Below, piece after piece: positions 5,454 through 36,049 of a DNA stretch of 64,000 nt. Source of the stretch: Paragonimus westermani. Its lineage: Eukaryota > Platyhelminthes > Trematoda > Plagiorchiida > Troglotrematidae. Location: assembly GCA_008508345.1 (NCBI GenBank), contig QNGE01003687.1, forward strand, positions 1 through 64,000, in the 5' to 3' direction. The notes beneath the pieces were generated by a model, which made no database searches, had not been told where the DNA came from, and was given only the letters and a program-made list of their open reading frames with translations. The position numbers were made by a program, and so were the translations under genes. The number at the start of each line of letters is the position of its first letter. Positions within the stretch are counted from its first letter, which is position 1.

Positions 5454-7510
5454 TAACTACCCAAATTTTTGATGAGGAAAAGCTTCCTTTTTCAGTGGGT
5501 CACGGAGTTTATAGGCTTACTGTTCCTCTACACAATAAGGCCAGTATTTGGTTAGGCATTGAAACGACTCCTTTTGCATGCTCAGGTGCACTAGTTACTT
5601 GCATTTTGCGTGAGAGATTGCATTGTTTAGGCCTAAGGATAATATATTTGTGTGTATTCTTAGAAAATGGTTTCAGGTTCGCCGTGCGAATAGGAAGCAA
5701 CGGGAATAGGGTGGTCAGTCCTCGTCCACTAACTATTTGGAACGTCTCTAGAGGAGAACAGTCGAGCTGTGTTCTCAGCAGCCACCAAAATGGAGGAATA
5801 TGGGAGAAGTGGGTTTGAAACCGGATCGTATATTTCCAGCACTGTTTTTAAATGTATTAATTATTTGCATCTCTTCGTCTGGGACTAGCAGCAGCAACCA
5901 TGAAAGAAGAGCAAAAGCGTGAGGTGGGCTCACGCCCACTGAGTAGCGCTCGTAGACTCGCTAATGAAAATTGCTTAGAACGCTCGAGTATTTTAAACAA
6001 CGGCCGAAAGGGTGCGAGCAAAACGACCTTAGCGAATAGAATAATGGATGAGTCGTTGAGGATGTACAAGCATTCGTTGCATGCACTTAGTTGCACGACC
6101 GAAGGAAGTGGCGTCGTGTTCACACCACTTCAGTTTCAATGGCACTAGCCATCACGGGTTCAAGTTCGTTAGTTCGTTCTGCACTATCTAATTCTGGAAA
6201 ACCGCAAACATTTCGTAGTCCACCGGTCAAAAACGCTTTTCTGTGTACGACATAAGTTTGACACCAAGATGAGCTCACGTGATTGCTTGTTTATCGATTG
6301 GATGACTAATCGACAGATCGATTGAGTGAAGCTGAACAGGTGTTGCAGATGACTGATTCCTATTCTACACTTCATTAGTTAGTCGTCCCTTACTAGTTCA
6401 TCTGAGGGGAACAAAGTATGAAGCACCGGTAATGGTAGTATTCGTACTCCGAATCCGGTCACTTTCAGTTTAAAGCGATATCCAATGTGTGAGACATACA
6501 GTCAGACTACTATACCGGCTGCCGATCAGTGGTCACTGTATTTGTGCGTCGAGTCACAAACGAAGAAATTGGACGTAGAATTGCAAAAAGACAATGCTTA
6601 TCCCGTTACACTCGATCGTGCGATGCAGACTGATTATCAGTGCTGTGGCGCTCCCATCCGGCTACGTGTACGCTTTTAAGCGATAGTCAGACCGTTGCTT
6701 TGATTGGTGTTGCACGCGGAGAGCACCGCTATACAACTTCATAACGGATCAAACGGTCAGCTTGTTTTTGTGATCCTGAAATTTGTATCGATTTTGACTA
6801 TTTGTTTATCGTTCATCGTAGTATGTTTCCAGTGACTTACACAGGTTTACTTGTAATAATATATTCTACTGCTTGCCTGGCTTGTGATGTGTGATTTATA
6901 GTAGTGTGGTCGGTTCACGCATTCGTCGGGAAATCATCAGCGGATTGTGAATGCTGTATTGAATTATGTATCACTCGTAACAGACGATGTTTTGGCTCGA
7001 GCCGCCGTACATTCCAACACTAGCACACAATATCCCGGAATTAAAAGGCACATCCAGTTTGAGCAGTTAATTGGATTGGATGCTTGTCCAACTCATTGAG
7101 CATCTCATTCGTGCTCGAAGTAGGCCCCATCGTTCATTACCGCAAGATCCCGTTTGCAGACATGCTGGAGCTCAATATATCTCACGTGACTCCTACCCCA
7201 ACACACGAGAGTCATCTCTCCACCGTTGAGTACGATTCATCTACACACCGGTAGTCGTGCTGTATGAACCCCGAGAACGACTGTTTTGTTTGGTGAAGGC
7301 ACCTGTTCAAATTCAGTCTCCCTCTACAAATGGTTTTCCATCGCAGTCTAGTAGTAACCTTTAGACTGTGTGTAACTGATATGAGCCTTGTGTTGTGATT
7401 AGGTCGCAAATGTTCATTGACCATTAGTGAAATTCTTCATATGCGTTGCGAGTTGATCAAACATTTAATATCAATTGCTGATGAGTAGTCGGGGATTTAG
7501 TTTTATTTTC
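3421..7510. other. Intergenic or intronic stretch, no gene recognised
   Basis: Open frames here are short and show no motif I recognise; several overlap on opposite strands (for example 5857-6148). The only clear feature is the AT tract at 5415-5450. If the ARID2-like gene continues downstream, this could be one of its introns, but no exon was identified. Confidence 0.6.
5415..5450. repeat. (AT)n microsatellite
   Basis: An uninterrupted run of about 18 AT units, with no recognised transposon beside it. Confidence 0.97.
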
Positions 7511-7526
7511 AAGTTGACCATCACTC
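7511..7526 (-). repeat. Inverted stub of the SINE 3' end
   Basis: The 16-20 bases before the N (CAAGTTGACCATCACTC) are the reverse complement of the 3' end of SINE copy A at about 7650-7668. The stub therefore reads in the opposite orientation to the copy right after the N. Confidence 0.85.
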
Positions 7527-7527
7527 N

Positions 7528-7672
7528 CGGCCGTGGCAAGGATATGCACTACTGATGAGCTCTAATGAGAGCGAAACTCGAGTCTGGTGCTTCATTTCAA
7601 AAGAGGCTAGCTGGAAAGTCTATGTGAATGCGAACGCTGCGATCAAATGTGAGTGATGGTCAACTCGAAAAT
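7528..7672 (+). mobile_element. tRNA-derived hammerhead SINE, copy A (5' truncated at N)
   Basis: Starts just after the N with the end of the tRNA-like B-box region (CGGCCGTGGCAAGGATAT). It then carries the hammerhead ribozyme (7546-7590) and the family 3' body (GGAAAGTCTATGTGAATG, GCTGCGATCAAATG), ending in GTCAACTCGAAAATT before A/T-rich DNA. The pol III promoter half is missing. Compared with copy B at 17201-17463 it is nearly identical over the shared part, so it is young or has been conserved. Confidence 0.9.
7546..7590 (+). ncRNA. Hammerhead ribozyme, type I, intact core
   Basis: Stem I is GCACUA (7546-7551) pairing with UGGUGC (7585-7590), one G-U pair. Then the core CUGAUGA (7552-7558), stem II GCUCU/AGAGC with loop AAUG, core GAAA (7573-7576), a very short stem III ACUC/GAGU with almost no loop, and cleavage triplet GUC ending at 7584. 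All catalytic positions of the hammerhead consensus are present and in order. The expected self-cleavage is between 7584 and 7585. Open-ended stem I and minimal stem III match the layout known for retrotransposon hammerheads such as schistosome Sm-alpha. Activity is inferred from the sequence. Confidence 0.92.
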
Positions 7673-7788
7673 TTAATATTAATATCGATTCAAAGTAAAT
7701 TCACAATTGACATAAATCCGAACAGTGTTCATTGGACCAACGCAGACATTACAAGATTGGGTTTATTGATACTGGAGTTCCCTTTATT

Positions 7789-8031
7789 CAAATTGAATAC
7801 CACTCATAACGGATCGCAGCTTTCGTATTCAGACGGAGTTTTCGGCCAGTTGCCTTCGAACTAAAACACTAGACTCAAGCGTTTGTTTTATCAGACTCCG
7901 CAGTTGTGTATGTGTTCGCCACGACTGAGACTTTAGCTCTGGTTCACGTTCTCAAGGAGCAATCCTGTTGACCGCTGAGTCATTGACTTCAGATTAGGCA
8001 CGTCCGCTACGTCCAGCCACACTTGCCCGAG
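7789..8031 (-). mobile_element. tRNA-derived hammerhead SINE, copy F (old)
   Basis: Reverse-strand copy with recognisable body and a tRNA-like head (GTCAATGACTCAGCGGTCAACA corresponds to the A-box part). The hammerhead region (about 7866-7915) has lost its core: CUGANGA has become CUGCGGA, and stem II does not pair. It lies tail to tail with copy A, about 115 bases away. Confidence 0.75.
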
Positions 8032-10924
8032 TTTTTGATAGAGAAATCAACGTCTTTTGTGACGAATTAAAGTAGAATTAAAACCTAAATTTGAGTGCAG
8101 TATTGAAGAGACTGGCATATTTTAATCTAAGCTACAAAGTTGTGCTTGTTAGCCGTTCGTTACACATAACACCCTAAGGGTGTTTATTAGGCAATGTTCT
8201 TAACTTCATAAGTCGGTTCACTGAATTATACTTCAGAATTCCACTTCATCGTTAAAGATGAAATTTTCCATGCAAGGTGAACACTTTGGCTAACGGTAGC
8301 TCCGGCTTGCAACGTAGCGGAAAAATCGCCATATACATGAGGTATAATATACTTTGTGCGGGAATATTCGTGTAGTTCCTGAAATTTACTCTAATAGGTG
8401 CATCTAGTTACCCGTGACTATCTAAGAAGTGTTGTTTATATGTGGTTGCTGGCACTTTCAAATAATATACATCGTCCTATGTACCTATGGTGATGCCTCA
8501 TTACTTAAACCGTTCTCATTTGAGATGAACCTCACTGATCTGTACCAGAGGCTTCCCTTCGAGAATACACAGCGACTAGTATCTCATGATTGTTACTTTG
8601 ATGTATGAACCGTTCTCCCGTTGAAATTCAGATGTATTGCGTTGTGCGTTCCGATGACTGTTTCATGAAACTCAGAATGTGTCACTTCCTGTTCGTATAT
8701 CTGTCTGTCTGTCCGAGCTCTGGCTTCTCCGATTGGTAACTTCCTAACAAGCTCGGACGTCGGCCATTTCACCCATCCATCGGGCGATTTTTTCTAGCAA
8801 TCCAATGATGTTCTTCACTACTCTACGATTTACTTGAAACACATCGTGCAATTCTCTTTCCATCTACTACGCACTAGTTAAGGGAAAATGAACAGCTGGG
8901 CCGTCAAACTCATTGATATTCTATGCTCTGTTTATTGAGGTTATATAGAGAGGAAATGGGCAAACAGCTTTAGCGGATGTGCCTACCTGTCAACCGTTAT
9001 TGATCATGTTTTCGATACTGTTTGGATTGTAAGTGTATCTGGTGGCCCACTTGTGATTAAGCTGTTAATTGGGTAGTGTTGTGTTTTTGGCACATTAAAG
9101 CCTCCAATCTCATCTCCTGCACTTGAATTGGCCGTTGCAATTGAGAACACTGGAAAATAATACTGCGCTTACTGTCTGCCTCACTTTTTCCAATGATGCT
9201 TATTAGAAACAATTTACTGTTAGCTATAATCGTCCGCTTCTGTATTTCGTCCATTGGTGTAAGTAGAAACACTAAGGAACCAGTGATACGTTTATTGCAT
9301 ACCAGTGCAGCTAAACCGGCCCACTCAGCTTAGTCAGTATGTAACCACCAGACTTATAGGTGTTTGGTTGTTCACCGAGCCTGGTACTTAGATTGCAAGC
9401 GTTTACTCGTCAGATGAAAAGGAATCAGTGCGCGTGGTCATAAAGCCACTAAACTGAACTGCTAACTCAGCCACGATTCTGAATAGTTAGAAGCCACCAG
9501 ACCGGGACAGCATATATTTAAATGCATGCTGTGTGGTTTGGTGGGCAACCATGTAAATCATTGAGCCAGTGCGCTGGACACAATTAACGAAGGCGAACCG
9601 CAACGGGTTCATAATATTGTAACTTTATTCCCAAATATTTTGCGTTGCCCTAATATAGCGCTTTCTGAGAATACTTGTGCACACTTACACGCGAACGTAG
9701 TATCAGTTGAAATCAATGTTTCAGCGCAGATCTGTACATTGCGTTCAAAATTATTAACTTTGTTACTCCTCTTACGTAGGGTATGAGTGTTAGTCACTAC
9801 AACATGCTGTTCGCAGCGTGTTCGGAAAATGCATACTTTTGTTCGTAGGGCTTTCATTTCCCTTTTCCTATCGGTAATCGGCTGGTGTGTCTGTCTTGGT
9901 AGGAGTCTACAGATGGGTTTCTTAGCAGTAATCGACCCCGTTTTTTTGTACCGCACAATAATCGTGCTGACTATGGCTTTAGCTAATGAATTGTGTTTGA
10001 GTTGGTTGTGTCAAATCTCTTTTCAGGATTGTTGACAAACCTGTTGAACGAGTCAATGAATTCAACACCTTCATGCTACAACATTTCTGTGGTTTTTATC
10101 TCGCTTCGTTTTAAATTAGCTGGAATTTGCGCCGAAAATCTTGCGAGCTGTCTTAGCTGCAGTGTGCTCTGTTTGCGCTCCGAATTGCCACGTCACGTGG
10201 GTACAGTGAGATAAATGTGCACCTATTATGTTTCTGACACATGTTACGCTATGTGTTCAACGGCAGTTCGGACTCCGGTGCAACTGTAAATAGATAACAG
10301 CAGAAAAATAAACGGTCTTTATAAGAACCATGTTTCTGACTCCACCGTTTCTCGCCATAGCTGTTCACTTTAATTCCATACTAATGCCGTTGGTCTGAAA
10401 GCCGGTTGCATCCTACACAACTGACGTTTATGTCGGTGCATTCATCCTTTTTGATGCGTTAACTTCATAATCTCTTGAAGTAGGTCAAGCTATGAACTTG
10501 TCGAATGAAAAACTACTTTCACAACCATAGCAACGTGAATACGTCTGACCTCCGTCTACTCTGCTTCTGTCAGTGAAGCACTGTAAGATCCCTCGTACTT
10601 GTGCTTTGCAATTTGCTGTATGGTCTATCGACCGATTGTATCCAGATGCCAGCTACTCAGGTCACATGCTTTCGAGCATTTGTAACCATTAACAGTTTCG
10701 TTACGTGACATACAGGTATTGCTCATTGTTGGATTTAGAGTAGTCTCTAGCATGCATTTATATCTACATGTTACTGTGTTTTTGGGGGGAGCTTTTGATT
10801 TACCTTACAGGGCATCACCTTGCAATCGTGCGGGAAGGTATGCCTGAGGAGTATTTCGAAACCTCTTAGCGTCAGACATTCGATTGAGTAAAGTTTCATT
10901 TTTTGCCACCACAAATATTGTCGT
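8032..10924. other. Stretch with no recognised gene
   Basis: Open frames at 9609-9956 (minus) and 9787-10214 (plus) overlap each other and match nothing I recognise. An AATAAA hexamer near 10306 could be a polyadenylation signal, but no gene can be tied to it. A short CTGT run occurs near 8700. Confidence 0.55.
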
Positions 10925-11367: not shown

Positions 11368-11503
11368 TGTTGTGTAACAGGCAGTTTCGTTGTGAGTAGT
11401 ATACTACTCACAAGCAGTGTATTACCCACAGGGGACATTCAGGAGCAAAAGGACAAGCCCCGAACACGACGGACAAGAAGAGACTATCGAAACAGTGTGT
11501 ACA
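11368..11503 (+). repeat. 5' LTR
   Basis: 136 bp from TGTTGTGTAACAG to CAGTGTGTACA, matching 15609-15744 except at 11374 (G versus A) and near 11415 (C versus T). It contains a perfect 24-bp palindrome at 11390-11413 centred on GTATAC. No clear TATA box or polyadenylation signal was seen. The LTR is very short for a gypsy element. Confidence 0.93.
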
Positions 11504-11566
11504 TGATGTGTGAGAACTTTCACCAAGGCGAATGACCACGTACTGTCACCCAATGTATGTGAGTGC

Positions 11567-14500
11567 ATGTCCGTCGTGCAAATGAGTGTACACGTTTGTG
11601 GTTTAGTTTTTGACATGACCTATACGGAAGTTTGCGCAATAAACCAACTTGTTGGCCAAGCGTCTTTTGCGGACACAACAACAAGTGCCGTGACGAACGC
11701 GAGGATGAAGATTCCCTGGCCACAGCCGTTCGAAGATGGAGACGTCCGGACGTTCCTGGAGGACTTGGAGGACGTGGCCGAAGTGGTCGGAGTCAAGACC
11801 GACCGTGGGAAGCTGGCTGCCCTGCGGACGCTGGTGAAGGGCAGGGCGAAGGCGGTGCTGGACGCAGCGCGAAGAGGCCCTGCGAAGATGGAGTGGGCCG
11901 CTGCGAAGGAGACGCTGGTGGCTGCGTTTGACAGCCCGGCCGACCGCCAGGAGGCCATGCGGCGGTTCAAGGCGGCCAGGCTTGGACAAGGAGCGGACCC
12001 GTCCGTGTTTGCCACCACTCTGCAAGGTTTGCTGGACAGGGCTCTGCCAGGATTGGATCAAGAATCACGACGGCAGTTGTTAACGGAGCAGTTTATTGAA
12101 GGTCTCCCGATGGAGGTTCGCGACCAAGTCCGTATTGCCCATGTCGCCCGGCCGATGGACCTTGACGATCTGGCGAAGGTGACACGGGAGTTGGCAGTAA
12201 TGTCCGTGGCCTCAGTGGATTCAAACAGCAATACGGACAAGAAGACATTGGAGGTAATGCAGAAGGCAATGGAGCAACTCGCAGCGGATGTAGCTGCCCT
12301 GAAAACAGCAGCACGGAAGAACGATCAACCAGGAGGCTGCTTCATCTGTGGAAAAAAAGGACATTGGAAGAAGGATTGCCCAATCCGGCGGTCTCAGAGG
12401 TCTAAAAATAAAGTGTTTCGTGATTGTTCTTTTTGTTGGGCGGGTCGACTAGTAATGGGAGCGATTGAGAAGGGGGCCGTACATACAAGGGTTGAAGTTG
12501 ATGGAGAGGTAGAACAGTGTTTAGTCGATACAGGGGCAGCTATTTCGTTGATTGCTCGTGCCGAAAAGCAAAACCTAGAACCGACATCCATGATGATCAA
12601 GACGGTTGGAGGTCATAGTCTACTGGTTGACGGTGTGAAAGAATGTGGGGTACGTATCGGCGGCCATATCGTAAAGCACCGTTTCATTGTGTCCCCAGAA
12701 ACCAGGCAAACGATACTCGGAGCCGATTTCCTCGCTGCAACAGATGCCGTGATTGACTTGAAGCTCAAGAAGTTGTCAACCAAGTATGGCTCCCTGACGC
12801 TCATAGGACAGCGAAAGGATAGCGTCAACCAAGTACGCAAGGTTAAAACCCCCAGTTGCACAGCCCCCCTGCTCCAGTCCACGGTCGAGAAATACGCGGA
12901 AGTATTTACGACTGACGATGATCCGTACGGATTTTGCAACTGGATTGCCCATGAAATACCAACAACCGGAACATTTCGACCTCACGGGCCCCGCAGGATA
13001 CCGGTTCATCTTGAGGAGGAATTGAGGAGACAAATACAGAACATGCTGAGCGAGGATGTTATCGAAGAAGCCAACAGTCCGTACAACTCGCCTGTTCTCC
13101 TGGTGAAGAAGTCCAACGGGAAGTACCGCTTTTGTGTGGATTTTAGACGGCTGAATGAAGTAACACAGAATACAGTCGTACCAATACCGTCCGTCGCTGA
13201 TATTTTTGACAAGCTACAGCAGGCGAAATTGTTCACAGTTTTGGACTTACGCTCCGGATACTGGCAAGTACCAATTAAACCCACAGATCGTGAGAAGACC
13301 GCATTCACGGTAGGCGAAAAACAGTATCAGTTCAAGCGCATGCCGTTTGGCCTATCCGGGGCACCTTTCACATTTCGGCGCCTGATGGTTCAGCTGGTAA
13401 AACGACTGGATAATGTGGCGGTATACGGAGATGATATCGTAATATACAGCAACACGGAATCGGAACATGCTGCCCATATAGATGCTGTCTTGAATCGCAT
13501 TAAGAACTCAGGACTGCGGATCAATGCTGATAAGTCACAGCTCGGACGATCATCGGTGGTGTTACTGGGACACAAGGTGGGTCAAGGCGAAATCAAGCCT
13601 CTCCCGGAGAAAATACTGACAATTAGAGAAGCCATGGCTCCGAATTCCAAACGAACCCTGAGACAATTTTTGGGTCAAGCGGGGTACTACAGTCGGTTCG
13701 TGAAAAATTTTCACTCCATTGCATTGCCATTGTACGAACTCCTTCGAAAAGACAAGAAATTTGAATGGACCGACGATGCCCAGAGGGCGTTCAAGCGAGT
13801 GCAACAAGCGATGAACGAGCAACAACTGACGTTGAAACTACCGAATACAAAAGAAACGTTCATCGTAGCAACAGATGCCAGTGACCGTGGCATTGGGGCA
13901 GTACTCAAGCAAAAGGAAGGAGTAATCGAGTATGCCAGCAGAGTCCTGACTCCAACGGAGCAGAAATATTCGACTATTGAAAAGGAATGTTTGGCAATCG
14001 TCTGGGCACTGGACAAGTGGAGGCCATACCTGTTGGGTCAACAGTTCCACGTGGAGACGGATCACAAACCCCTGGAATGGATCATGACTGCGAGGGACCC
14101 GAGAGGCAAATTAGCCCGATGGGCATTACGTTTACAGGAATATGACTTCACGATCAACCATGTGCCTGGTTTGAGCAATTGCGTCGCGGATTTTCTTTCT
14201 CGACCACAAGTAGACGACGAACTCCCCAAAGTGACCTTTGGAGTCAACGGCTTAATAATGGAGCAGGACCCACAAACGCTAGTACGCCTACAACGTCAAG
14301 ATAAGGTCCTCCGGAAAGTGATTGAAGCTCTGGCAAGAGGCGTGAGAATCCCCACAAATACTAAGGATGAGGAGCTGAAAATAATCGCATCCCAATGGAA
14401 AAGAGTTGGCTTAAACAGTGCAGGCGTATTGACATGGCAGCGTGGCGTTGGGCACCCGTGCGTGGTAGTCATCCTGAGACAACTGAGGAGGAAAGTGGTG

Positions 14501-15640
14501 GCAGACTGCCATGAAATGGCACACACCGGATGCACTAGGACGTACGATCTGTTGCAACAAAGAGCATATTGGCCGAAAATGAAAGAGGATGTGACAACTT
14601 ACGTGCTTGCATGCCAACAGTGTCAGTTACTGAAAGGCGACAATCGGGGAGCCCAACAGCCCTTACAGCCAATACCAGTCTCCGAAATCGGTGAACTCTG
14701 GTCTATGGATCTTATGGGCCCATTTCCACTGAGCGCCCGCGGTAACCAGTACGTTCTGGTCATGACGGAACACTTTACCCGTTGGATCGAAGCGACTGGC
14801 GTTCCGGATCAGAAAGCATCTACGGTGGGAGATATGGTGATGAAGCACATTGTAGCAAACCACGGTGTACCAAAGGCGATCTTGACGGATCAGGGACCAT
14901 GCTTCGAAAGCGATGAGTTTCGAACACGCATGCAACAACTGGGAATCAAGCGCATCCGAACGACGCCGTATCACCCACAAACGAATGGCCTAACTGAGCG
15001 TAACAACCGAACGGTCAAAGAATGGTTATCAGCCAAAGGAGGAGACTGGGAGTCTGCGTTGCCACTAGTGTTATTGGCCTACCGGGCGTCTGTGCAGGCG
15101 AGCACGAAGAAATCTCCATTTCAATTGATGTACGGTAGAACCCCTCGACTTCCGGTGGATCAGGACATTGGGGTATGGCCAGAGTGCATTGATTCCACTA
15201 AAGAATTGGTAACCGAAAGAGAAAGAGCCCAACGAAATCTGAAAGCATCGCAAGCACGCACAAAGGAGAAATCCGCAAGGCAACGGTTCGGCAAGACTAG
15301 AATGTTCAACCTAGGAGAACGGGTGAAATATCGAGACCATCGGAACACCGGTGCCAGCGGGCCAGGATCAAGAAAACTTTTGCCTAAATGGAAAGGTCCG
15401 TATTTGGTAATATCCAGACGAGGCCCAGTATACACGATCAAGAAGGACGGCGAGACGAAACGAGTGCACGCCAGTGAGTTAGCAACGTGGCACGAGATGC
15501 CGGCGCGACGAACCAGAAGATCAATAATCCGGGAGGAAACACCGCGTCGATCGGAGAGGATTCGTCGACAAATGCGAAGGAACCAAGGAACCTCAGAAGG
15601 GGGAGGAGTGTTGTATAACAGGCAGTTTCGTTGTGAGTAG
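11567..15640 (+). CDS. Gag-Pol polyprotein of the Ty3/gypsy element
   Basis: A single uninterrupted frame, 1357 aa from the ATG at 11567; ATGs at 11615 and 11705 (MKIPWPQPFEDG) are possible later starts, and the latter fits usual gag N-termini best. Order: helical gag capsid region; CCHC knuckle CFICGKKGHWKKDC (12338-12379); aspartic protease VDTGAAISLI (Asp at 12527); reverse transcriptase with KSNGKYRFCVDFRRLN, LDLRSGYWQVPI, MPFGLSGAPFTF and catalytic YGDD (13424-13435); RNase H with ATDAS and TDHKPLEW; integrase with an HHCC zinc region (MAHTGCT to ACQQCQ) and a D,D-35-E triad (14708, 14888, 14996). The polyprotein is expected to form particles, copy its RNA and integrate the cDNA. The stop TAG (15638-15640) lies inside the 3' LTR. 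Gag and Pol share one frame, so no frameshift is needed. No disabling change is seen. Confidence 0.95.
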   Translation: MSVVQMSVHVCGLVFDMTYTEVCAINQLVGQASFADTTTSAVTNARMKIPWPQPFEDGDVRTFLEDLEDVAEVVGVKTDRGKLAALRTLVKGRAKAVLDAARRGPAKMEWAAAKETLVAAFDSPADRQEAMRRFKAARLGQGADPSVFATTLQGLLDRALPGLDQESRRQLLTEQFIEGLPMEVRDQVRIAHVARPMDLDDLAKVTRELAVMSVASVDSNSNTDKKTLEVMQKAMEQLAADVAALKTAARKNDQPGGCFICGKKGHWKKDCPIRRSQRSKNKVFRDCSFCWAGRLVMGAIEKGAVHTRVEVDGEVEQCLVDTGAAISLIARAEKQNLEPTSMMIKTVGGHSLLVDGVKECGVRIGGHIVKHRFIVSPETRQTILGADFLAATDAVIDLKLKKLSTKYGSLTLIGQRKDSVNQVRKVKTPSCTAPLLQSTVEKYAEVFTTDDDPYGFCNWIAHEIPTTGTFRPHGPRRIPVHLEEELRRQIQNMLSEDVIEEANSPYNSPVLLVKKSNGKYRFCVDFRRLNEVTQNTVVPIPSVADIFDKLQQAKLFTVLDLRSGYWQVPIKPTDREKTAFTVGEKQYQFKRMPFGLSGAPFTFRRLMVQLVKRLDNVAVYGDDIVIYSNTESEHAAHIDAVLNRIKNSGLRINADKSQLGRSSVVLLGHKVGQGEIKPLPEKILTIREAMAPNSKRTLRQFLGQAGYYSRFVKNFHSIALPLYELLRKDKKFEWTDDAQRAFKRVQQAMNEQQLTLKLPNTKETFIVATDASDRGIGAVLKQKEGVIEYASRVLTPTEQKYSTIEKECLAIVWALDKWRPYLLGQQFHVETDHKPLEWIMTARDPRGKLARWALRLQEYDFTINHVPGLSNCVADFLSRPQVDDELPKVTFGVNGLIMEQDPQTLVRLQRQDKVLRKVIEALARGVRIPTNTKDEELKIIASQWKRVGLNSAGVLTWQRGVGHPCVVVILRQLRRKVVADCHEMAHTGCTRTYDLLQQRAYWPKMKEDVTTYVLACQQCQLLKGDNRGAQQPLQPIPVSEIGELWSMDLMGPFPLSARGNQYVLVMTEHFTRWIEATGVPDQKASTVGDMVMKHIVANHGVPKAILTDQGPCFESDEFRTRMQQLGIKRIRTTPYHPQTNGLTERNNRTVKEWLSAKGGDWESALPLVLLAYRASVQASTKKSPFQLMYGRTPRLPVDQDIGVWPECIDSTKELVTERERAQRNLKASQARTKEKSARQRFGKTRMFNLGERVKYRDHRNTGASGPGSRKLLPKWKGPYLVISRRGPVYTIKKDGETKRVHASELATWHEMPARRTRRSIIREETPRRSERIRRQMRRNQGTSEGGGVLYNRQFRCE
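15595..15608 (+). promoter_or_regulatory. Polypurine tract (plus-strand primer)
   Basis: An all-purine run (GAAGGGGGAGGAG) ends directly at the 3' LTR start, the position of the plus-strand primer of LTR elements. It also codes for the last residues of Gag-Pol (EGGG). Confidence 0.85.
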
Positions 15641-15744
15641 TATACTACTCACAAGTAGTGTATTACCCACAGGGGACATTCAGGAGCAAAAGGACAAGCC
15701 CCGAACACGACGGACAAGAAGAGACTATCGAAACAGTGTGTACA
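15609..15744 (+). repeat. 3' LTR
   Basis: 136 bp copy of 11368-11503 with the same 24-bp palindrome at 15631-15654. The gag-pol stop codon lies within this palindrome. Confidence 0.93.
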
Positions 15745-15750
15745 TGTTTA

Positions 15751-17200
15751 TCGGTCGTGAGTTTGCATGTTTATTAAATGCACGCGACAGACGACCGTGT
15801 TAACCACGCAATCAGTTTATTTGATACAGCCTAACTGGCCTACACAACGGTATGCATCTTCTGCACGAATGGAGGGCCTCTCTGATCTCTGGAGCAAAAG
15901 TCGAGTGTGTACACGCATTGAAAGTGCATATTCAGCCGGTTCAGCATAGACCGCGTGCACTCTGAAAAAGAACCAAATAAGACAATGTTGTGTGCGTGTT
16001 CATTATCAGTCAGCTTACTATTTGATAGAAGCTCCACTCCGAGATCTTCGGAGCCTCAAATGTTCCTTCGTAAATATAACTCATTTCATAGTTGAAGAAG
16101 GAGGGGGGGAATCGCACATCCCTGTCAAAAGTCACGAAATAACGCTCGAGATGGTTACCCATAAATATAATTTTATATCGACCTCATGGTTAGAGTAGGA
16201 GCGTTCAATAAGAAATGCGAACTGACTGCTTTTGTCCGAAACGGACTAGGCAATATTTATCATTTTTGTAAGAAAACTACTGACGAAATGTTAGTACATA
16301 TCGCCTTGGTAAGTAGCCACTTTTCCACGGACCCGAGGGTGGTTAATCGTAAGACTATTGAGTGAGCTCTTATAGGACGCCTGTTGTTCACATGTGTTAT
16401 GAGCTAAACGAGGTTGTTTTCAGCTGCGTAAAAATATTTTCACCCGCAGTACCGGTTGATACAGTATTATGAACGTTTGTCAAAAGTAATCTGCCACATT
16501 TACAAGATTTCGGTAGTTGCTGTACAGTTTTATACCATGTAAATAGTTATTTGACAAGGTGATAAAATGTCGGTTTGTTTTCCTTTTATATAGGTCGTCG
16601 TTTCTACCCCCCTCCCGCCTACAATGCTGTTCCGCCGAACGAACAGGCAACTTCCGGCCCGCCACCGTCATCACGTAACGTGGTCACTTACTGTGATTTG
16701 GACTATGGGGATGTTTGAAAATGTACATACACGTTCATGTTCCTTCTTCCCTATTGTTGTCCAAATATACCATCTTCTGTTCGCTCCAAATCTTGATTTT
16801 CCGTGTCCTTATTCATTCCTGTGTGCAAGTAATTTGACTAATGTCGTGTGATGATTCAGATGACCTCGTTCAAACCTGCTACACGATCGTCTTATAGTAC
16901 GACCAATGTATGATGCTCGACAGGAGAAAAATCAGCATAAACAGCAGTACATGAGGGTTTGTCTTTGAGTTGTGACATGATGACGGGTGTCGAACGCAAA
17001 TTCACCATTGAACGGCAGGATAGGTTGTTTCGATTGAATTTCTGAGCTCTCGCGATAACTTCGGTTGAGAACTGACAGAGTGCGTGAAAATCATCCCACA
17101 TGGTTGAACAGTCGTATGGCTAAAACGATTTCAAGTGTGATTATTGCTCATTTGATCGACTCTAATCATTTTGTCAACAAGAAAGATGCCTTTTCTTTTT
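15751..17200. other. Stretch with no recognised gene
   Basis: Only short frames without recognisable motifs. A pyrimidine-rich run near 16605-16620 resembles a splice acceptor tract but is not followed by an identifiable exon. Confidence 0.55.
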
Positions 17201-17278
17201 TCAAGTTGACCATCACTCACATTTGATCGCAGCGTTCGCATTCACATAGACTTTCCAGCCAGCCTCTTTCGAAACGAA

Positions 17279-17323
17279 GCACTAGACTCGAGTTTCGCTC
17301 TCATTAGAGCTCGTCAGTAGTGC
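17279..17323 (-). ncRNA. Hammerhead ribozyme, type I, intact core
   Basis: Stem I GCACUA/UAGUGC is six perfect pairs. Core CUGACGA, stem II GCUCU/AGAGC with loop AAUG, GAAA, stem III ACUC/GAGU and triplet GUC are all present. It differs from the copy at 7546-7590 only at the variable base of CUGANGA and by a better stem I. Predicted cleavage follows the C complementary to 17285. It is the best-preserved ribozyme in the window. Confidence 0.93.
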
Positions 17324-17385
17324 ATATCCTTGCCACGGCCGGGATTTGAACTCCGGACATTCCAATCATGAGGCAACCATGTTAA

Positions 17386-17396
17386 CCGCTGCGCCA
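17386..17396 (-). promoter_or_regulatory. Pol III A box of SINE copy B
   Basis: TGGCGCAGCGG fits the TRGYNNANNNG A-box consensus. The matching B box is at 17341-17353. Confidence 0.75.
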
Positions 17397-18000
17397 TTGA
17401 CCTCACTTTAGGCACGACCGAAGTATCCAGTCTGAACGCTCAACCACTCTCGCTTGTGAGCAATGATCATATTCATATTGTCTGTCGAGTGTCAGGAAAT
17501 CGATCAAAAATGAGATTCCGAATGTTGACCGATTTTGCAACTCCAATCTCTGTGCTCAGAAGAAGTTTGTGCGGACACAATCTCCCGTAGCCCACAATCA
17601 ATCAACCTCACAACTTGGAACAGTGATTGCGTAACTGACACAAAACACGCCGTCCATAGCTCCTGTCGACTGTTTTTCTGACTCACCCTAGTTGCCGTTT
17701 TCATACTTATTGTGTTGTGATGATCAAACACAGATAACATGTCTCGTTCGTCGCTTTGTCTGAAACATGAACTTGAATTAAACAGTGAGAAGACGCAATT
17801 CATGTGATGTTCTCCGGAGTAACATTTCGTACATTCTGATCACACATGGACATGTAACTACTTTCAAACGGGTCAAAATTCCAGAGCGGAAGTCATGGCT
17901 CAAGGGGTTAAACACACCAAAAATGAACATCACAATTATGGGACTGCGGACTACCAGTATAGCCGCAGTGTCAGCACAAATTTTTTTGAGCACAGGGGGG

Positions 18001-21042: not shown

Positions 21043-22750
21043 GTGAGTCATAGTCGGTGAGCAACAACGTTGTTAGGTTGCACCCACACATGTTGCATAA
21101 TTCGTGAGAACTAGGGTTTATCCATGGAAACGTGATCATTTCTTCGCTTGATCTGTTTCACCATACCGCTCATAAACTGTAAGTATATACTTAGTCAGAA
21201 CACGTCGCTTTGTCTAACAAAGCTACTTACTTTGTGTTTATTACCGCCTGTGGGTCTGAATTACATAGGAAGCAAGACATGACTGACATAGGGTAATCAT
21301 GTGCGAATTGTTTTTTCGGTGTGAGGCACACGTCCAGTTGCTCCGAATATGACGTATATCCGTAGGAAAGTGTGCACACATGATTCCATTGTTAATGAAT
21401 ATCGTAAGGTGAGAATATATGGTTAAGCAAACGAAATGAGCAGTGCATAGGGCTCTTGATGCTAACTTACTCAGCAGTAGGATTTTTACCATTTGGACGT
21501 GTAGTCCACAACAATGTCATTATATCTGTCCAACCAACAACCACCACCGTGGTTATTAATGCTTCCAATATTACTAATAATAGAAGCTATGGTTACCAAA
21601 AATATGTTCAAGTTCATCCCCAAAGTACAGTTGAACATAAACAGTTAGAAAAGACAACCGCCCACGATACTTGCACGCGTGACACGAGAGGCCGCTGCAT
21701 TCAGAGGTCGGTAGCACAAAATGAAATTATCCAGCAGGACACGATGAGTACGTCGTCAAGACTCACTCCAGTTTTATGCCTTCACGCAGATCGGGACCAA
21801 AAACTCACGTACACCCTAGGTCGTCCCCATGTTTTATATCCTGCCAAGAAATTCTAGTAGGTATTAGTGATGCACTGATGGTCAAACAGCATGCACTGTA
21901 CTTTGCGACGTTCGGCCTGCGCGGGTTTGTTGTTTACGGAGTGCATTGCCTTCCCTCAGACTGGCACTTTTGCTCACATGCGCGGGTTGAATATTCACTC
22001 ATTAAAATTGAATGAAGAAATTTGCCGTTTGCTTGGCTTTTGATGAATACACAGTCACTGCATCACATCCAACTTTAGCGAAGTCTTGCATTAACTCGCC
22101 CACATAAATTCCATTGAACTCGGAATACTGTCTAATAAATAGAGAAACATCTGGCAAACGATTGGAATGTGAAATTGCAAAATGAAATGCAAGCGGATAG
22201 ATCATGATTTTGTCGCGATAAATTGAATAGACAAATACGATTGTCAAAATTCTAAGATGAGTCATTTACTAACAGCATGGGCTTTCAACGTTACGAAGTG
22301 CTGCTGATTCCGTCGAGGAGCTTCTCATGTATGCAATGGGGCGGTATTGCTATAATTTTTACTCAAGATGCCCCGACTAAGTATGACCTTGTGCAAAAAC
22401 AAAAATCACCCTTCCTTTGTTCAGTCTTGCTCAGTCGGGCGATGTTATGAGGAGTGCGTATGCTGGTGTGACAAGTGGTCGCCCAAATGATCACTTAGTC
22501 GAGTAAAACGCGAGCCATGCGCTCTGCTTGTGTTGCTCGCGCTGTCTCATCACTGCTAACTGCTCCTGCACATTTCTGGATTTCACGTTTACAGTGTGTA
22601 TACACGATCCCTGCGGATCGAAGGTTACGCACACTTTCGGCGTCTACAGATCATCATTAATACGTATTAAGCAATCCTTGCAGAATGTGCAGTGCAACGA
22701 CGACCCAAGATGCACGATCGTTTTTTAGTTTTAATTCATGTAGGTAGATA

Positions 22751-23012
22751 AACTGAACATCACCCACGACTGATCGCAATTTTCGCTTTCCCACAGAGTC
22801 TTCAGTCGGCTCCTTTCGAGAACAAACACTAGACTCGAGTTTCGTTCTTGTTAGGGCTCGTCAGTGGTGCACATCCTTGTCACGGCCGGGACTACAACTC
22901 CGGCCACGCTTTCACGGGGTAACCATGTTGACCACAGCTCTATTGACCTCACATTAAGCACAATCGAATTATCACATCTGAAAGCTAAACCACTTTCGCT
23001 TGTGAGCACTGA
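22751..23012 (-). mobile_element. tRNA-derived hammerhead SINE, copy C
   Basis: Full-length minus-strand copy: head GCTCACAAGCGAAAGTGG, A-box region GTCAATAGAGCTGTGG (degraded), B-box region GGAGTTGTAGTCCCGGCCG (degraded), ribozyme at 22826-22870, body, and 3' end GTTCAGTTTATC. It lies inside the TMEM223 intron, antisense to the gene. Confidence 0.88.
22826..22870 (-). ncRNA. Hammerhead ribozyme, core kept but stems damaged
   Basis: CUGACGA, GAAA, stem III ACUC/GAGU and triplet GUC are intact. Stem II is GCCCU/AGAAC with two mismatches, and stem I GCACCA/UAGUGU has one mismatch and one wobble. It is probably weak or inactive. Confidence 0.7.
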
Positions 23013-23269
23013 TCAGATTGCTCGATCGCCTCGAGAGTAGACAGTAACTATCTTGTCAACTCCAATCAATAACCTTTCGATTAAGACTTCTCTCCAAGTT
23101 TAAATCGCAGAAATCGTCCTCTTTACTTTATCGGCTTGCCTATAGATCCAAACACAGAACTCTCACATCATACTTCTAAACACACTGAGCGGTCGTGTTT
23201 TCTCAACCGTTTGTGTTCAGTCGTATTTCAGAGGTGACTCAGACAACCCTTCGTCCGTCTCCACAGTCA

Positions 23270-23640: not shown

Positions 23641-24639
23641 ACGCTTAGCTTGCCTATTTCCTCATCGACTGCAACGTCACTGCTAACGAGGCAACGAAGG
23701 TCTTCCACAACAGACGCTCTGATGCTTATCCGGCCAACTGAAATAAATCAGGTAAGCCGGCTTTCCCCCCGATAGGTGTTCTGCATTCCTAGAACACCAC
23801 CAGTATACTGGTCTTGGATTACATCGCCATCACTTCTGAAATTGTAACGAAGGACTCAATGACATTCCCTCCGGCCGTCCTCATCACGTGTTATGATCCT
23901 TCTTTTTGGTAGCAGTAGACTTTGAACACACTCTTCTGGACCTTGATGTGAAGTTGAAGCAACCCCTAAACCAACCATCCCCGATGGACGCCTGCGATTT
24001 TTCCAGTCTTTCAGGTTCACGGTGCTTGTTCGTCGTTTCTAACTCAACACAAAAAATGCCGTCTCAATGATGCTTGACGTACGTTCCGTGGTAGTTTCGC
24101 GGGATTTGGAAACTTTACATGTCTTCGGAATACTGATTACAAGCGTTAACTACATTGTCGGTGGGAGACACTCGATGTCTGCTGCCGTGCTGGCCCTGGT
24201 TTCCTGTGTATTTTCATGGGGCTCGCATGTTTGCTCACATTTTTCAGTAGCAGTTTCCTCACACGGTATTAGGGGTATTGTAATGGGGACTTGCACCCGA
24301 TAATTTGTCGTGTGATATGCGTGCAGACAGCTAAAAGTATGACACAGTGGTATTCAGTGTGTTGTGTAGTGGGCGGTTTGGCGATTCCGACATTTTGTCA
24401 CTTATTAACTTTTTCATCACAGTACTTATAAAGTTTAAGTAGATGAAAAATATAACGTCATACTAGCGGGGTATCCAGTTGAATCACAGCAAAGGCTGGC
24501 TTTAATAATCATGGTTCAATGGAGTAACGTCAACATAACTGGGAGGTCCTGATCACGGGGTTATCGATTAGATTGAACGGAACGATTCAGTTCATCCCCC
24601 TTTCGAAATGACCAGCCAAGCTGAACACTATCCACACAA

Positions 24640-24890
24640 TGTTCTGGTTAAGCGTTTGGATGATCATTCGGTCGTCTATTGTGAGATTACTGACGTTGTA
24701 GTTAACATGCCGGTCTCACAAACACAAGGGCCGGAGTGTGACTCCCGATCCGAACGAGGATATACACTACTGGCGAACCGTAATAACAGTGAAACTCGAA
24801 TTTAGTGTTTCCTTTCGAAGTGGGCCCGCCGAAAAGTTTGTCTGAATATGGAAGCCGTGATCAGGTGTGGGTGGTGTTCAGTTTGAAATA
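24640..24890 (+). mobile_element. tRNA-derived hammerhead SINE, copy D (old)
   Basis: Plus-strand copy: GTTCTGGTTAAGCGTTTGG, tRNA-like segment with GTAGTTAACATGCCGGTCTC and GAGTGTGACTCCCG, ribozyme remnant (about 24764-24808) and 3' end GGTGTTCAGTTTGAAATA. The ribozyme core is mutated (CUGGCGA for CUGANGA, AUU for GUC). Inside the TMEM223 intron, sense to the gene. Confidence 0.8.
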
Positions 24891-29010: not shown

Positions 29011-30469
29011 GGGTGTTACAAATAGCCACATCCGACTAAACGACGCCATTGATAGCGCTGTAACTGTAGTCAGTGGAGATAAGTTAACAGAACGACAGGA
29101 GTTCGAGAGTTGCTGACGTAAAAGTTATCATCAGAAGGTAAATAACGCCAGTAAGAATGCACATGATACATACATAGCAGTGTATTGAGTACGAGTGAAT
29201 GACAAAAACTGTGTTAAGACATCTGAATCCGGATAGCGCAGTAGAAATGATTTTGGTAGTTGCGAATAATCAATTGAGACAGTAGAAGCTTTTGGGATAT
29301 AAAAATGGATGAGATGGTAGTCTTTGATTTGTAGCTCGTTTGCTGAAGCTGTGCAAGTCTTGGAGTCGATAGTTCTCACCATAGGAGTATCGTTTAGACA
29401 GTGTGGCGGCGTGAGGGTAAGATGTGTTGTTCAACATGTGTAACAATGAATGGTCATTCTTGTTGATGCGTCGCGTAGAAAAGTGACAAAACCCGATTAG
29501 TTGTGGTATTGTTTGTGGCCATCAGACATGCCACACAACGAACTAAGTAAGGTGTTGGTGGTACTGACGCTAATGTTGCTGACAGAATTGGAACCGCTGA
29601 TCATGTTGCGCGTTCCTTGTCAGGCGCTTCGTCGAACCGTCTCTGTCAGGCGTTGTGCCATGCCTTGATTGAATAAACGGCTGTTCTTATAGTTCACGTG
29701 GGCTTTCAAAATGTATGTCTATGAAGGTCGGGACGGGTTACGTATTGGACACGACATGTTAGAGATGTAATTGACCTGATCACATACATGGCAGGTTCAT
29801 CAAGATAGTTAAGAAACGTGTACGGACGAACGCATCGGAGGTATGGTGATGCATTTATCATGATGTTTCTGTCAATTTCGAATGGAGTCAGTCGAACCTC
29901 TACAGAGTCTTGATAACTTTATGGATGGACGGCACAGGGACTACTGCCAACAGGAATCCCATTTCTCATTGCAGATAATACTGCTGTATCTGGGACTATC
30001 CTTATTCTAATTTTGTGAGAACCGGTTTAAATGTCCAGTACAGTACGTTACCTGGATTAAAGCCTAAAATTCATGTCGACAGTTAACCTATGTGCGGAAA
30101 ATGAAGGTGTATAGATTAACTCACACCCTATACCAAGACACCGGAAGAGGAAACCAATGATGAAACTCACAGGGGCAATGTAAATATGATAGACTCTATG
30201 GAACGAAGGGAGTTTTAGAGGAGACTTGGAAATTCGTTAACTTTTGAGTCAAAGCGACAGTGTAGGAGTCGGCAGTGGCGTACGTTCGACTAGCCGTATC
30301 GGATAGAGCAGGTGGGGAAGCTCGAATTAATCTCCAGAAAGGCTGATGTGGTGTACAATTAGGGATGTAGCAAAATGTCACATATGTAAGTGAGCTGAGG
30401 TAATGTCAGGACGATTAGGATTCCTAACCGATCTTTGGTTACTGGCAAGTAGTGGGGGATTCGGTTGGT
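29011..30469. other. Stretch with no recognised gene
   Basis: Short unassigned frames only; no transposon motif seen. Confidence 0.5.
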
Positions 30470-30740
30470 ATAAATTGAACGCTATTCACGAGTGATCGCA
30501 GTTTTCACGTTTCCATGGACTTTCCGGCCAACTCCCTTTAAAAAGAGGCACTAGGTTCGAGTTTTGTTCTTGTTAGAATTCGCCAGTATTACAAATCCTT
30601 TCCACTAACAGGACTTGGACTCCGACCACACCTTAATGAGGCCACCGTGCTGACCACTGCGTCATTGGCCTCACATAAGGCACGACTGAATTATCACGCA
30701 CAAACGCTCAACCACTTTCGTTTATGTGACGTTCAGATTG
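30470..30740 (-). mobile_element. tRNA-derived hammerhead SINE, copy E (old)
   Basis: Minus-strand full-length copy: head AAACGAAAGTGGTTGAGCG, A-box-like CAATGACGCAGTGGTCAGCA, B-box-like GGAGTCCAAGTCC, body and 3' end TTCAATTTATACC. The ribozyme region (30548-30592) has CUGGCGA and AAAA in place of CUGANGA and GAAA, so it is dead. Confidence 0.82.
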
Positions 30741-32962
30741 CGTCCAACATGAACCTATACTAGACGGCAACAGTTGGGATGCGGTGGACTAGGATTAGTG
30801 GCGTTTATCTTCCGAATAAGCGAAAAGTCTGGTCTCAACCTGGAGATCGAAATATATGAAGCTTTAGGCCTACATGCTCAAACCCCTACAGAGTGATGGT
30901 TGTTTGTTGAGGAAACGCTTGCGATCTAAGCGTCAAGCTAGGCGAACAACAGAGAATCTGACCTTCTGTATGTTAGTATAAGTGACATGGAACACGGTCA
31001 CCACAACGTTCAAGCTAATTCAACAGATCAGGTCTGCGAGCCGTCACATCGCTCAAACTCATAGTCTGACCACATCTTGACCACGACGACGCCATCATGA
31101 CCTAATCACAGGTTGAAAAATTGGAGTTCAGTACTAAACCGGTAGGCTATTTATTTGCAATACTAAACAGACTCCCATCGGGATAAACCTCAGTGTTTAC
31201 AGATGGATACACTTCCAAATTTGTACAACGTTCAGGTAATGACAATCTGGTAGGGATTTTTTTGAAGGTTAAGCACGTCGGGAAGTCTCACCGAGTGTTA
31301 AGGTTAATATGAATGCAATACCTAAACCGACTGCGCCTCCTCTCAATCTGTTCACTTTTCAGCGAATGGTCCGATTTTGCCTGCAAATGTAAGTTGCCTT
31401 TGATGAGAAGGTACCTGTTGGAGATGATTGCATATGAGGTGCGGGAAGTGGTTAGGGTAAATTGGTTGTTTTAGCTAATAGCGCGTCTGTAGAACCTAAT
31501 GACTGTATCTGACTACGAACATTACTGGATCAATCAGCAGGATGCGAGAAATGCGATGTAAACTGTCGATTGTAGTGCTTACCAATAGCAAGCAATAATG
31601 CTCAACCGTTTTTCATTGACTGTCTACTTGGTCTTTGCAGGCAAGTGCCCATTCTTCCGCGCTCAACTAGACGAAGACAGACTGCGGCTTTCCAGAGTTT
31701 GCCTGGAGATGAAACCGGCTAACCTGTAAAGTATGTATCAAAAGATCAACAAATTCTCTTGGCTTTGAACCATCCTATTGGTTGAATGGAGGTAGCCTAT
31801 ACCATGAGGTTCGAATGCGAACGAAACCGGTCGTCGAGTGTTAATTCATGTAGACAACGAACATGAACTTCTTTTCAAATTTAAACCCTCGCGATGGTAA
31901 CCAGCTTGACGTCACAATCTAAAACGGTCAATGCCCATCCGACAATTTATGTTGACTGAAGCCACAACTGACGTCTCACTTTTCTCATCGCATGTGATCT
32001 GTGTGGATCAACCTGCACACTACAAGGTTTCTGCTAACAAGCCACACTGCGTCATTTATGGGTGTGTACTGTCAGACTGTTCATAACTAGATAAGAATCG
32101 ATAAGCGGATAGATAACAACACTCGGATGGTAACAAGCTGACTGGAATCCAAGTCCTGTTATTTTTCCGATTAAAACGTAGTACTGAATTAAACGGTAAA
32201 TGAAGGATAATAGCATCAGTTAAAAAGATCTTCCCCTTGTTGGGGCACGTTTCATATTATGCATCAGAAGCTCCTTACACTTCCATTCGATGACTGTCTA
32301 GCAGTTGGTACCAGTGAACCAGGAGCGTAGCAAACAGTGCAGGCACAAGTAAATGACGGAGTGATACAACTGACATACGGCACAACCACTTGACTTTGTG
32401 TTTTTAAGGTTGGCAAAAGTAGACATGTTTGATCCTTGTTGCCGAAAATGACCATCCTAATAGCCTCATCGAGTAGACCCGGTAGGCGTGATTGAACACA
32501 AACATCGACGATACAACATTCAGTAGGTTCAATATTCTAGACTTGTGGTGGACAACCTTTTACAACCTTAAACTGAAATTGCTGTGTTTTTATCGAAGTA
32601 ACCCTCAAGTTTAGGTGAAAAAGGCTACCCCGGTCCAGGGAATAGAGGGTCTGATTTCCCTTAATGTATTCCTGCCATTTGAGGTGCAACGTCCTAGCTA
32701 CAAAAGTCAATCACCAACCTCCAGAACAAGTGTCTAGCAGAAATCCAATGGCAATGTCAGGTTCCGGGCAATACTTAAAACTCTGGAGCATATCTTAGAG
32801 TGACACCGAAAACTGCCTCATGGAAATTTTGAAAAACCACAGTGGTGCCTCCAAAAAAGAGCACTCCGGCCTGAGGCCTCAAGTTTCTCTACTGCATTAC
32901 CACCTTTTAAGAAACCACTCAAACATAACCAACCCTAATCTATTAGTCCACATTAGCCAATT
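30741..32962. other. Stretch with no recognised gene
   Basis: No frame with recognisable motifs. It directly precedes the 3' tail of LINE copy D. Confidence 0.5.
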
Positions 32963-35570: not shown

Positions 35571-36049
35571 TTCACTTACGCGTATATGAACAGGTTACCA
35601 CAAACCGGACACCAGATTAATAACTAAACCGACAGTCTTGGTAGGGGATGTGTATCACAGTACTGTCCGCTTGAGCTTACACAACTTTCGGACAGCTGAA
35701 TGGAAAACTGAAGTCCATTTGGCCATTGACCTATTTGTATGACACAAACAAGTTGCCCCCGATAAACTAGGAGGCTTGTAAGCGTACCATAATCATCTTC
35801 AACACTGGTTCGTACCTTTGGCTACTGGGGCTCGGGATGCCATTGGTTCAGACAATGGTGCACGAGGTGATGAGGGCAAACGTGCAGAGAAATTAAGCAA
35901 AAAACACTCATGAAGAATAATGAAGGTCTTTACGGATATAAATTCGCCACTAATTGCGACAAACTATCGTGTCTGAGGGCGTTTCCAAGCAGCACAATAA
36001 ATGATCACGAAACCTCCAAACCGGACAAGAGGGGTCTGTCAACTTTGGT

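Follow-up and report, generated by a model that had tools for sequence, protein, structure and literature searches.

A dispersed SINE-like repeat family with a type I hammerhead and a candidate leader-tail RNA rod in Paragonimus westermani

Introduction

Does Paragonimus westermani, a fluke outside the schistosomes, carry a mobile repeat with a self-cleaving ribozyme, and what kind of element would that be? The question is raised by one locus in a 64,000-nucleotide stretch of contig QNGE01003687.1 (the window), where an earlier note had read positions 17201..17463 as a tRNA-derived SINE with a complete hammerhead, parallel to the Sm-alpha repeat of schistosomes. Hammerhead repeats in flatworms are already known in general, as retrozyme-like repeats have been described in platyhelminths (PMC7229834), and Schistosoma mansoni holds more than 38,000 hammerhead candidates (PMC2770079). 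NCBI taxonomy places Schistosoma in Strigeidida and Paragonimus in Plagiorchiida. SINEs make up 0.96% of the P. westermani genome and 0.96–1.26% across four flukes, and that genome report is not seen to name a hammerhead (PMC6329441). The statement in another source that flukes are without widespread SINEs (PMC6191129) is set aside given these values. In the literature searched, which did not include subscription papers, nothing joins Paragonimus with a hammerhead ribozyme, and an earlier account may exist. One paper there, on small RNAs of S. japonicum, mentions hammerhead ribozymes together with Clonorchis sinensis, and 12 mention a hammerhead along with SINEs and flukes, although some of these mean an animal by the word. 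The features described below are collected in Table 1.

Table 1. Positions of the repeat copies and their features in the window
Feature	Positions	Strand	Basis or remark
Copy c17, full-length, intact hammerhead	17198..17474	-	Profile and BLAST matches to other copies
c17 leader, 5' arm of predicted RNA rod	17408..17474	-	Leader profile, consensus fold
c17 A-box-like motif in leader	17436..17446	-	10/11, consensus scan; putative function
c17 A box	17386..17396	-	11/11, consensus scan
c17 B box	17342..17352	-	10/11, consensus scan
c17 type I hammerhead	17279..17323	-	RF00163 match and descriptor
c17 tail, 3' arm of predicted RNA rod	17200..17266	-	Tail profile, consensus fold
Copy c07a, without leader and most of box region, intact hammerhead	7504..7671	+	Core start 7552
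c07a probable target-site duplication, 5' half	7463..7475	.	12/13, shuffle p 0.007
c07a probable target-site duplication, 3' half	7671..7683	.	12/13 bases
Copy c22, core intact, stem II with two mismatches	22747..23021	-	RF00163 30.2 bits
Copy c30, broken hammerhead core	30469..30741	-	
Copy c24, broken hammerhead core, strongly complementary ends	24616..24887	+	
Copy c07b, most decayed, broken hammerhead	7787..8047	-	

The hammerhead of the full-length copy

The hammerhead at 17323-17279(-) is real. A covariance-model search for type I hammerheads, which the earlier note had proposed as a check, was run on the window and did not refute the claim: the Rfam model Hammerhead_1 (RF00163) matches here with 34.7 bits (E 6.2e-5), which exceeds the gathering score of 34 by only 0.7 bits. 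The core lacks none of its bases (CUGACGA, GAA-A, GUC). Stem I has 6 bp, stem II has 4 bp, and stem III, closed by UCGA, has only 2 bp, so the complete hammerhead claimed from core, stems and GUC holds. A strict descriptor, for which both the core and all three stems are obligatory, matches twice in the window, with core starts at 17317 (minus) and 7552 (plus), compared with none on both strands of 100 Markov-random windows, and a chance hammerhead is rejected on this ground. The cleavage point is predicted between 17285 (the C of GUC) and 17284. In the energy model, an alternative pairing of the core is more stable than the active hammerhead by 4.9 kcal/mol, both at full length (-96.1 versus -91.2) and when the 45-mer is folded by itself (-13.7 versus -8.8). 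This preference is a caution and not a refutation, because the tertiary core contacts of hammerheads are absent from the model.

Copies of the family

The hammerhead belongs to a family of dispersed repeats of about 275 bp. Searched by BLAST and with profiles, the window yields six of them, in both orientations, that together cover about 2.4% of it. Each copy is at most one unit long (at most about 277 bp), and there are no tandem units among the six copies in the 64 kb. The longest reading frames that overlap the copies have 60–77 codons, and no coding capacity is seen. The copies are thus dispersed, short, and non-coding, as SINEs are, which supports the claimed SINE-like family holding a hammerhead, parallel to schistosome Sm-alpha, here in a non-schistosome host. 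Separate profiles of the leader, box region, and tail find no additional copy in the window, and the covariance model R1 run over it recovers only its six source copies. A hammerhead pattern search of a viral contig collection and a genome contig collection gave 0 matches, and of nine candidates picked up with a peptide key, which was taken from a single reading frame of the copies, none had E up to 10.

The closest pair is c17 and c07a, with 95% identity over 147 bp in BLAST. They differ at six definite positions, all of which are transitions, plus one N. Position N7 of the hammerhead may be any base; it accounts for one of the two differences that fall inside the ribozyme, and the other changes a U-A pair of stem I to U-G. 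The remaining BLAST pairs among the copies have 68–78% identity, and the five long copies share 65% on average when compared pairwise.

The shorter copy c07a has an unusual 5' side. Twenty-eight bases (7476-7503) lie between the 5' duplication and the element, the 21 bases at 7506-7526 are identical to the reverse complement of the c17 3' end, and a single N at 7527 follows this inverted piece, after which the element resumes from the B box. This structure may stem from snap-back template switching, from a deletion in a copy whose ends were perfectly complementary, or from a join made by the assembly at the N. The p value of the c07a duplication comes from 300 shuffles and rises to about 0.04 when six tests are allowed for. 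The five other copies have no convincing target-site duplication (p 0.25–0.78), and the copy ends are not adjoined by a duplication of fixed length.

Promoter boxes and the question of tRNA descent

The tRNA-like pol III promoter that had been proposed is a candidate in one copy. c17 holds an A and a B box, scored against consensus strings, that lie 44 nt apart. The window contains no second pair of this kind, but boxes by themselves are weak evidence, because four pairs arose in 30 random windows. Box scores are lower in the remaining long copies, and clear boxes are found in c17 only. Descent from a tRNA gained no support: no tRNA, 7SL, or 5S family was matched in 17180-17490 up to E 10, where decay may hide descent, and ARAGORN finds no tRNA there. 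An A-box-like motif also lies in the leader, about 28 bases past the c17 5' end, and scores 10/11 in c17, c30, and c24. If this motif were a working box, it would explain why the leader is retained.

State of the hammerhead stems across copies

The hammerhead is intact in two of the six copies (c17 and c07a, the only ones with a complete core and three stems); of the four that fail, one keeps its core with two mismatches in stem II and three have a broken core. In a permissive scan, c07a scores best with Hammerhead_HH9, at 7538-7607 (plus) with 33.2 bits, below the gathering score of 52, and c22 matches Hammerhead_1 at 22826-22870 (minus) with 30.2 bits, below the score of 34. For c24, c30, and c07b, no hammerhead model is matched at E values of 10 or less.

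The stems were compared in a structure-free MAFFT alignment of the copies (A1). Here, 83.3% of the 72 stem cells pair, compared with 12.5–47.2% when the partners are slid, and the covariation score of 0.317 exceeds the shuffled mean of 0.175 and is reached by none of 500 shuffles. Two-sided changes are found in six cells versus 2.5 in shuffles (4/500 as high); counted by pair, there are four versus 2.2 (62/500), which is not decisive. Compensatory changes between copies occur in stems I and II. At pair 32-43 of stem II, for example, three copies have C-G, whereas c30 has U-A and c07b has G-C. Source copies thus seem to have retained the hammerhead stems, as judged on six related sequences only. 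In loop 2, at which natural hammerheads make a contact, U-A-A is conserved in all but one of the six copies and the final A in every copy.

The candidate leader-tail rod

Homology among the copies extends some 70 bases beyond the A box on its upstream side, into a leader with complementarity to the 3' tail. The element is therefore longer than the earlier note had it: the stretch shared between copies begins near 17474 and ends near 17198, so that the proposed extent was too short. The leader and its pairing with the tail had been missed.

RNAalifold was applied to an alignment of the five long copies (A2). The consensus fold contains 81 pairs, 18 of which have two-sided changes and 41 of which form a rod between leader and tail; hammerhead stem III is absent from it. 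Compared with column shuffles, the whole fold has a z of -7.0 on the sense strand and -2.1 on the antisense strand. The difference is strongest in the arms alone (-7.7 sense, +0.5 antisense in the five-copy alignment), smaller in the hammerhead region (-4.1 and -2.8), and absent in the box region, where both strands score -2.0. In a strand-symmetric alignment, the arms hold 18 G-U pairs versus five A-C mismatches, with a binomial p of 0.011 that is optimistic as the copies are related. An RNA rod is favoured here, because a repeat that acts at the DNA level would not be strand-specific.

The individual copies contribute unequally. Standard pairs are formed at 40/41 rod positions in c17, 37/41 in c22, 36/39 in both c30 and c24, and 19/32 in c07b, and 87.5% of rod partners pair versus 34–45% when slid. 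Eight rod pairs have two-sided changes versus 4.2 in shuffles (8/500), the rod covariation score is matched by 41/500 shuffles and the pair-type count by 276/500, and the RNAalifold covariation term of the whole fold is unfavourable (+3.24). When one copy is omitted, the z of the whole fold becomes -2.5 (c17), -2.5 (c30), -3.4 (c24), -7.4 (c22), or -8.3 (c07b); the rod signal leans on c17, c24, and c30. The same three of the five copies self-pair significantly when folded singly, with sense versus antisense z values of -3.1 and -0.4 for c17, -3.0 and -1.6 for c30, and -4.0 and -2.1 for c24. The sense strand folds better in these three, c22 has the opposite preference (+0.6 and -2.2), and c07b folds on neither strand (+0.9 and +0.2). 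The interaction energy between leader and tail lies beyond shuffles only in c17 (-28.6 versus -6.4) and c24 (-24.0 versus -7.8). Taken together, a sense-strand leader-tail rod is moderately supported as an extra feature that the family would have.

In the energy model, mutual pairing of the two halves of c17 (189 and 87 nt) is worth about 22 kcal/mol. A transcript of a single c17 unit would be nicked rather than severed by the hammerhead, because its halves would be held together by this energy.

The surrounding window

The GC content of the window is 42.5–49.7% in 4-kb bins, and that of the genome is 43.3% (PMC6329441). A Ty3/gypsy LTR retrotransposon occupies 11368-15746, with a single open frame of 1377 codons and flanking 138-bp repeats whose 98.6% identity indicates that the element is probably young. 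Its frame is 100% identical to a P. westermani protein over the 751 residues searched, and the next four matches, three of them from named flukes, have 60–68% identity. A protein filed under an Aeromonas MAG is 59% identical to the fluke Ty3 frame and is probably eukaryotic contamination of the bin. A comparison of the Ty3 protein with the viral contig collection gave one pattern match and no relatives, and a published PwRn1 LTR primer is absent from the window at up to three mismatches. ARAGORN calls a tRNA-Lys at 11894-11985 inside the open frame, which is probably a false positive. A reverse-transcriptase relic lies at 33314-35594, with PF00078 in 33314-34285 (minus) and more open pieces upstream, and possibly derives from a non-LTR element. 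Self-comparison also finds an inverted pair of about 179 bp with 68% identity at 55584-56070, which is unrelated to the SINE.

Relation to known systems and rival readings

The best reading of the family is that of an Sm-alpha- or retrozyme-like SINE outside the schistosomes, likened to Sm-alpha by its hammerhead and by description. Sm-alpha and Sj-alpha of Schistosoma are likewise short interspersed repeats, in which a type I hammerhead is combined with a region of tRNA type (PMC2770079, PMC8490949). They differ in several respects: the Sm-alpha unit has 332–335 bp and also occurs in long W-chromosome arrays of up to 450 units (PMC8490949), whereas the P. westermani unit has about 275 bp and is found as six single copies in the window, and Sm-alpha is linked to tRNA-Gln (PMC2770079), whereas the present element matches no tRNA model. 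No Penelope protein was seen beside the copies among the listed open reading frames of at least 150 codons (five scanned). The minimal hammerheads of Penelope-like elements have a short stem III, as found here. They resemble the present case also in being linked to a retroelement (PMC7229834).

Metazoan non-LTR retrozymes are repeats, too, that measure a few hundred bp, carry a type I hammerhead, and have strongly self-paired RNA (PMC7229834, PMC4918200). The family could be a true non-LTR retrozyme, a possibility that deserves weight without being the favoured one: tandem source arrays elsewhere in the genome would be transcribed, two hammerheads would release unit-length RNA, tRNA ligase would circularise the unit, and the dispersed monomers would be reinserted circles. 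Size, hammerhead type, and strong self-pairing agree with the animal retrozymes (PMC7229834, PMC4918200), and retrozyme-like repeats are on record for platyhelminths (PMC7229834). However, no copy in the window is tandem; the copies stop where the rod stops and are one unit long or shorter, whereas cDNA derived from circles is expected to be longer than a unit (PMC7761336). The same source describes retrozymes as without promoters, whereas c17 has pol III-type boxes. Retrozyme target-site duplications are longer than 4 bp (PMC7229834, PMC4918200), and the probable one of c07a has 12 matches in 13 bp.

That the family is an ordinary SINE whose hammerhead is a relic without present function is improbable. 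The broken cores and the damaged stem II in four of the six copies would fit decay, but the closest pair, c17 and c07a, is intact and differs in the ribozyme only at the free N7 and by the U-A to U-G change, and the stem changes between copies are compensated. Least probable is a DNA element of the foldback or MITE-like kind. Its terminal inverted repeats would be the complementary ends of the copies (21 bp in c24 by its own fold, 15 bp in c17, and also present in c07a), a reading disfavoured by the strand-specific folding of the arms, the excess of G-U over A-C, and the lack of a fixed-length duplication adjoining the ends.

Proposed cycle and implications

The reading preferred here, which stands at about an even chance, is that of a P. 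westermani SINE-like retroposon family: dispersed and monomeric, with a sense transcript that folds into a rod and is reinserted via LINE-type machinery. In the rod, leader and tail (about 70 and about 65 nt) would pair with each other, and the opposite end would carry the pol III boxes and the type I hammerhead. The cycle would start with transcription from the internal boxes, probably by RNA polymerase III. The transcript would then fold into the rod, a step that the alignment supports, and in young copies the intact core would cut after GUC. As the rod would clamp the halves, a single unit would only be nicked, and either the hammerhead itself or a ligase could reseal it; where transcripts are tandem or result from read-through, such cuts would release unit-length RNA. 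Ligation by the S. mansoni hammerhead is 2000-fold faster than by minimal hammerheads, according to a review (PMC6155905). The unit-length RNA may finally be reinserted by LINE-type machinery, for which one of the six copies has a likely target-site duplication. Older copies would mutate and decay, while source copies would retain the ribozyme stems.

More tentatively, and at a confidence well short of even, the family may be a promoter-bearing, monomeric, self-cleaving SINE with rod-clamped ends, in which the hammerhead cut is a reversible nick and which would link tRNA-type SINEs and the retrozymes with circular RNA.

By its sequence features, the family appears to add another fluke order to the Sm-alpha/retrozyme kind. 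Its intact, compensated, and decayed copies would offer a test set for why such an element retains a self-cutting ribozyme. If the family forms part of the 0.96% SINEs of P. westermani, hammerhead SINEs extend past the schistosome order, and a clamped self-cleaving SINE outside the schistosomes, if true, would be either ancient in flukes or evolved twice.
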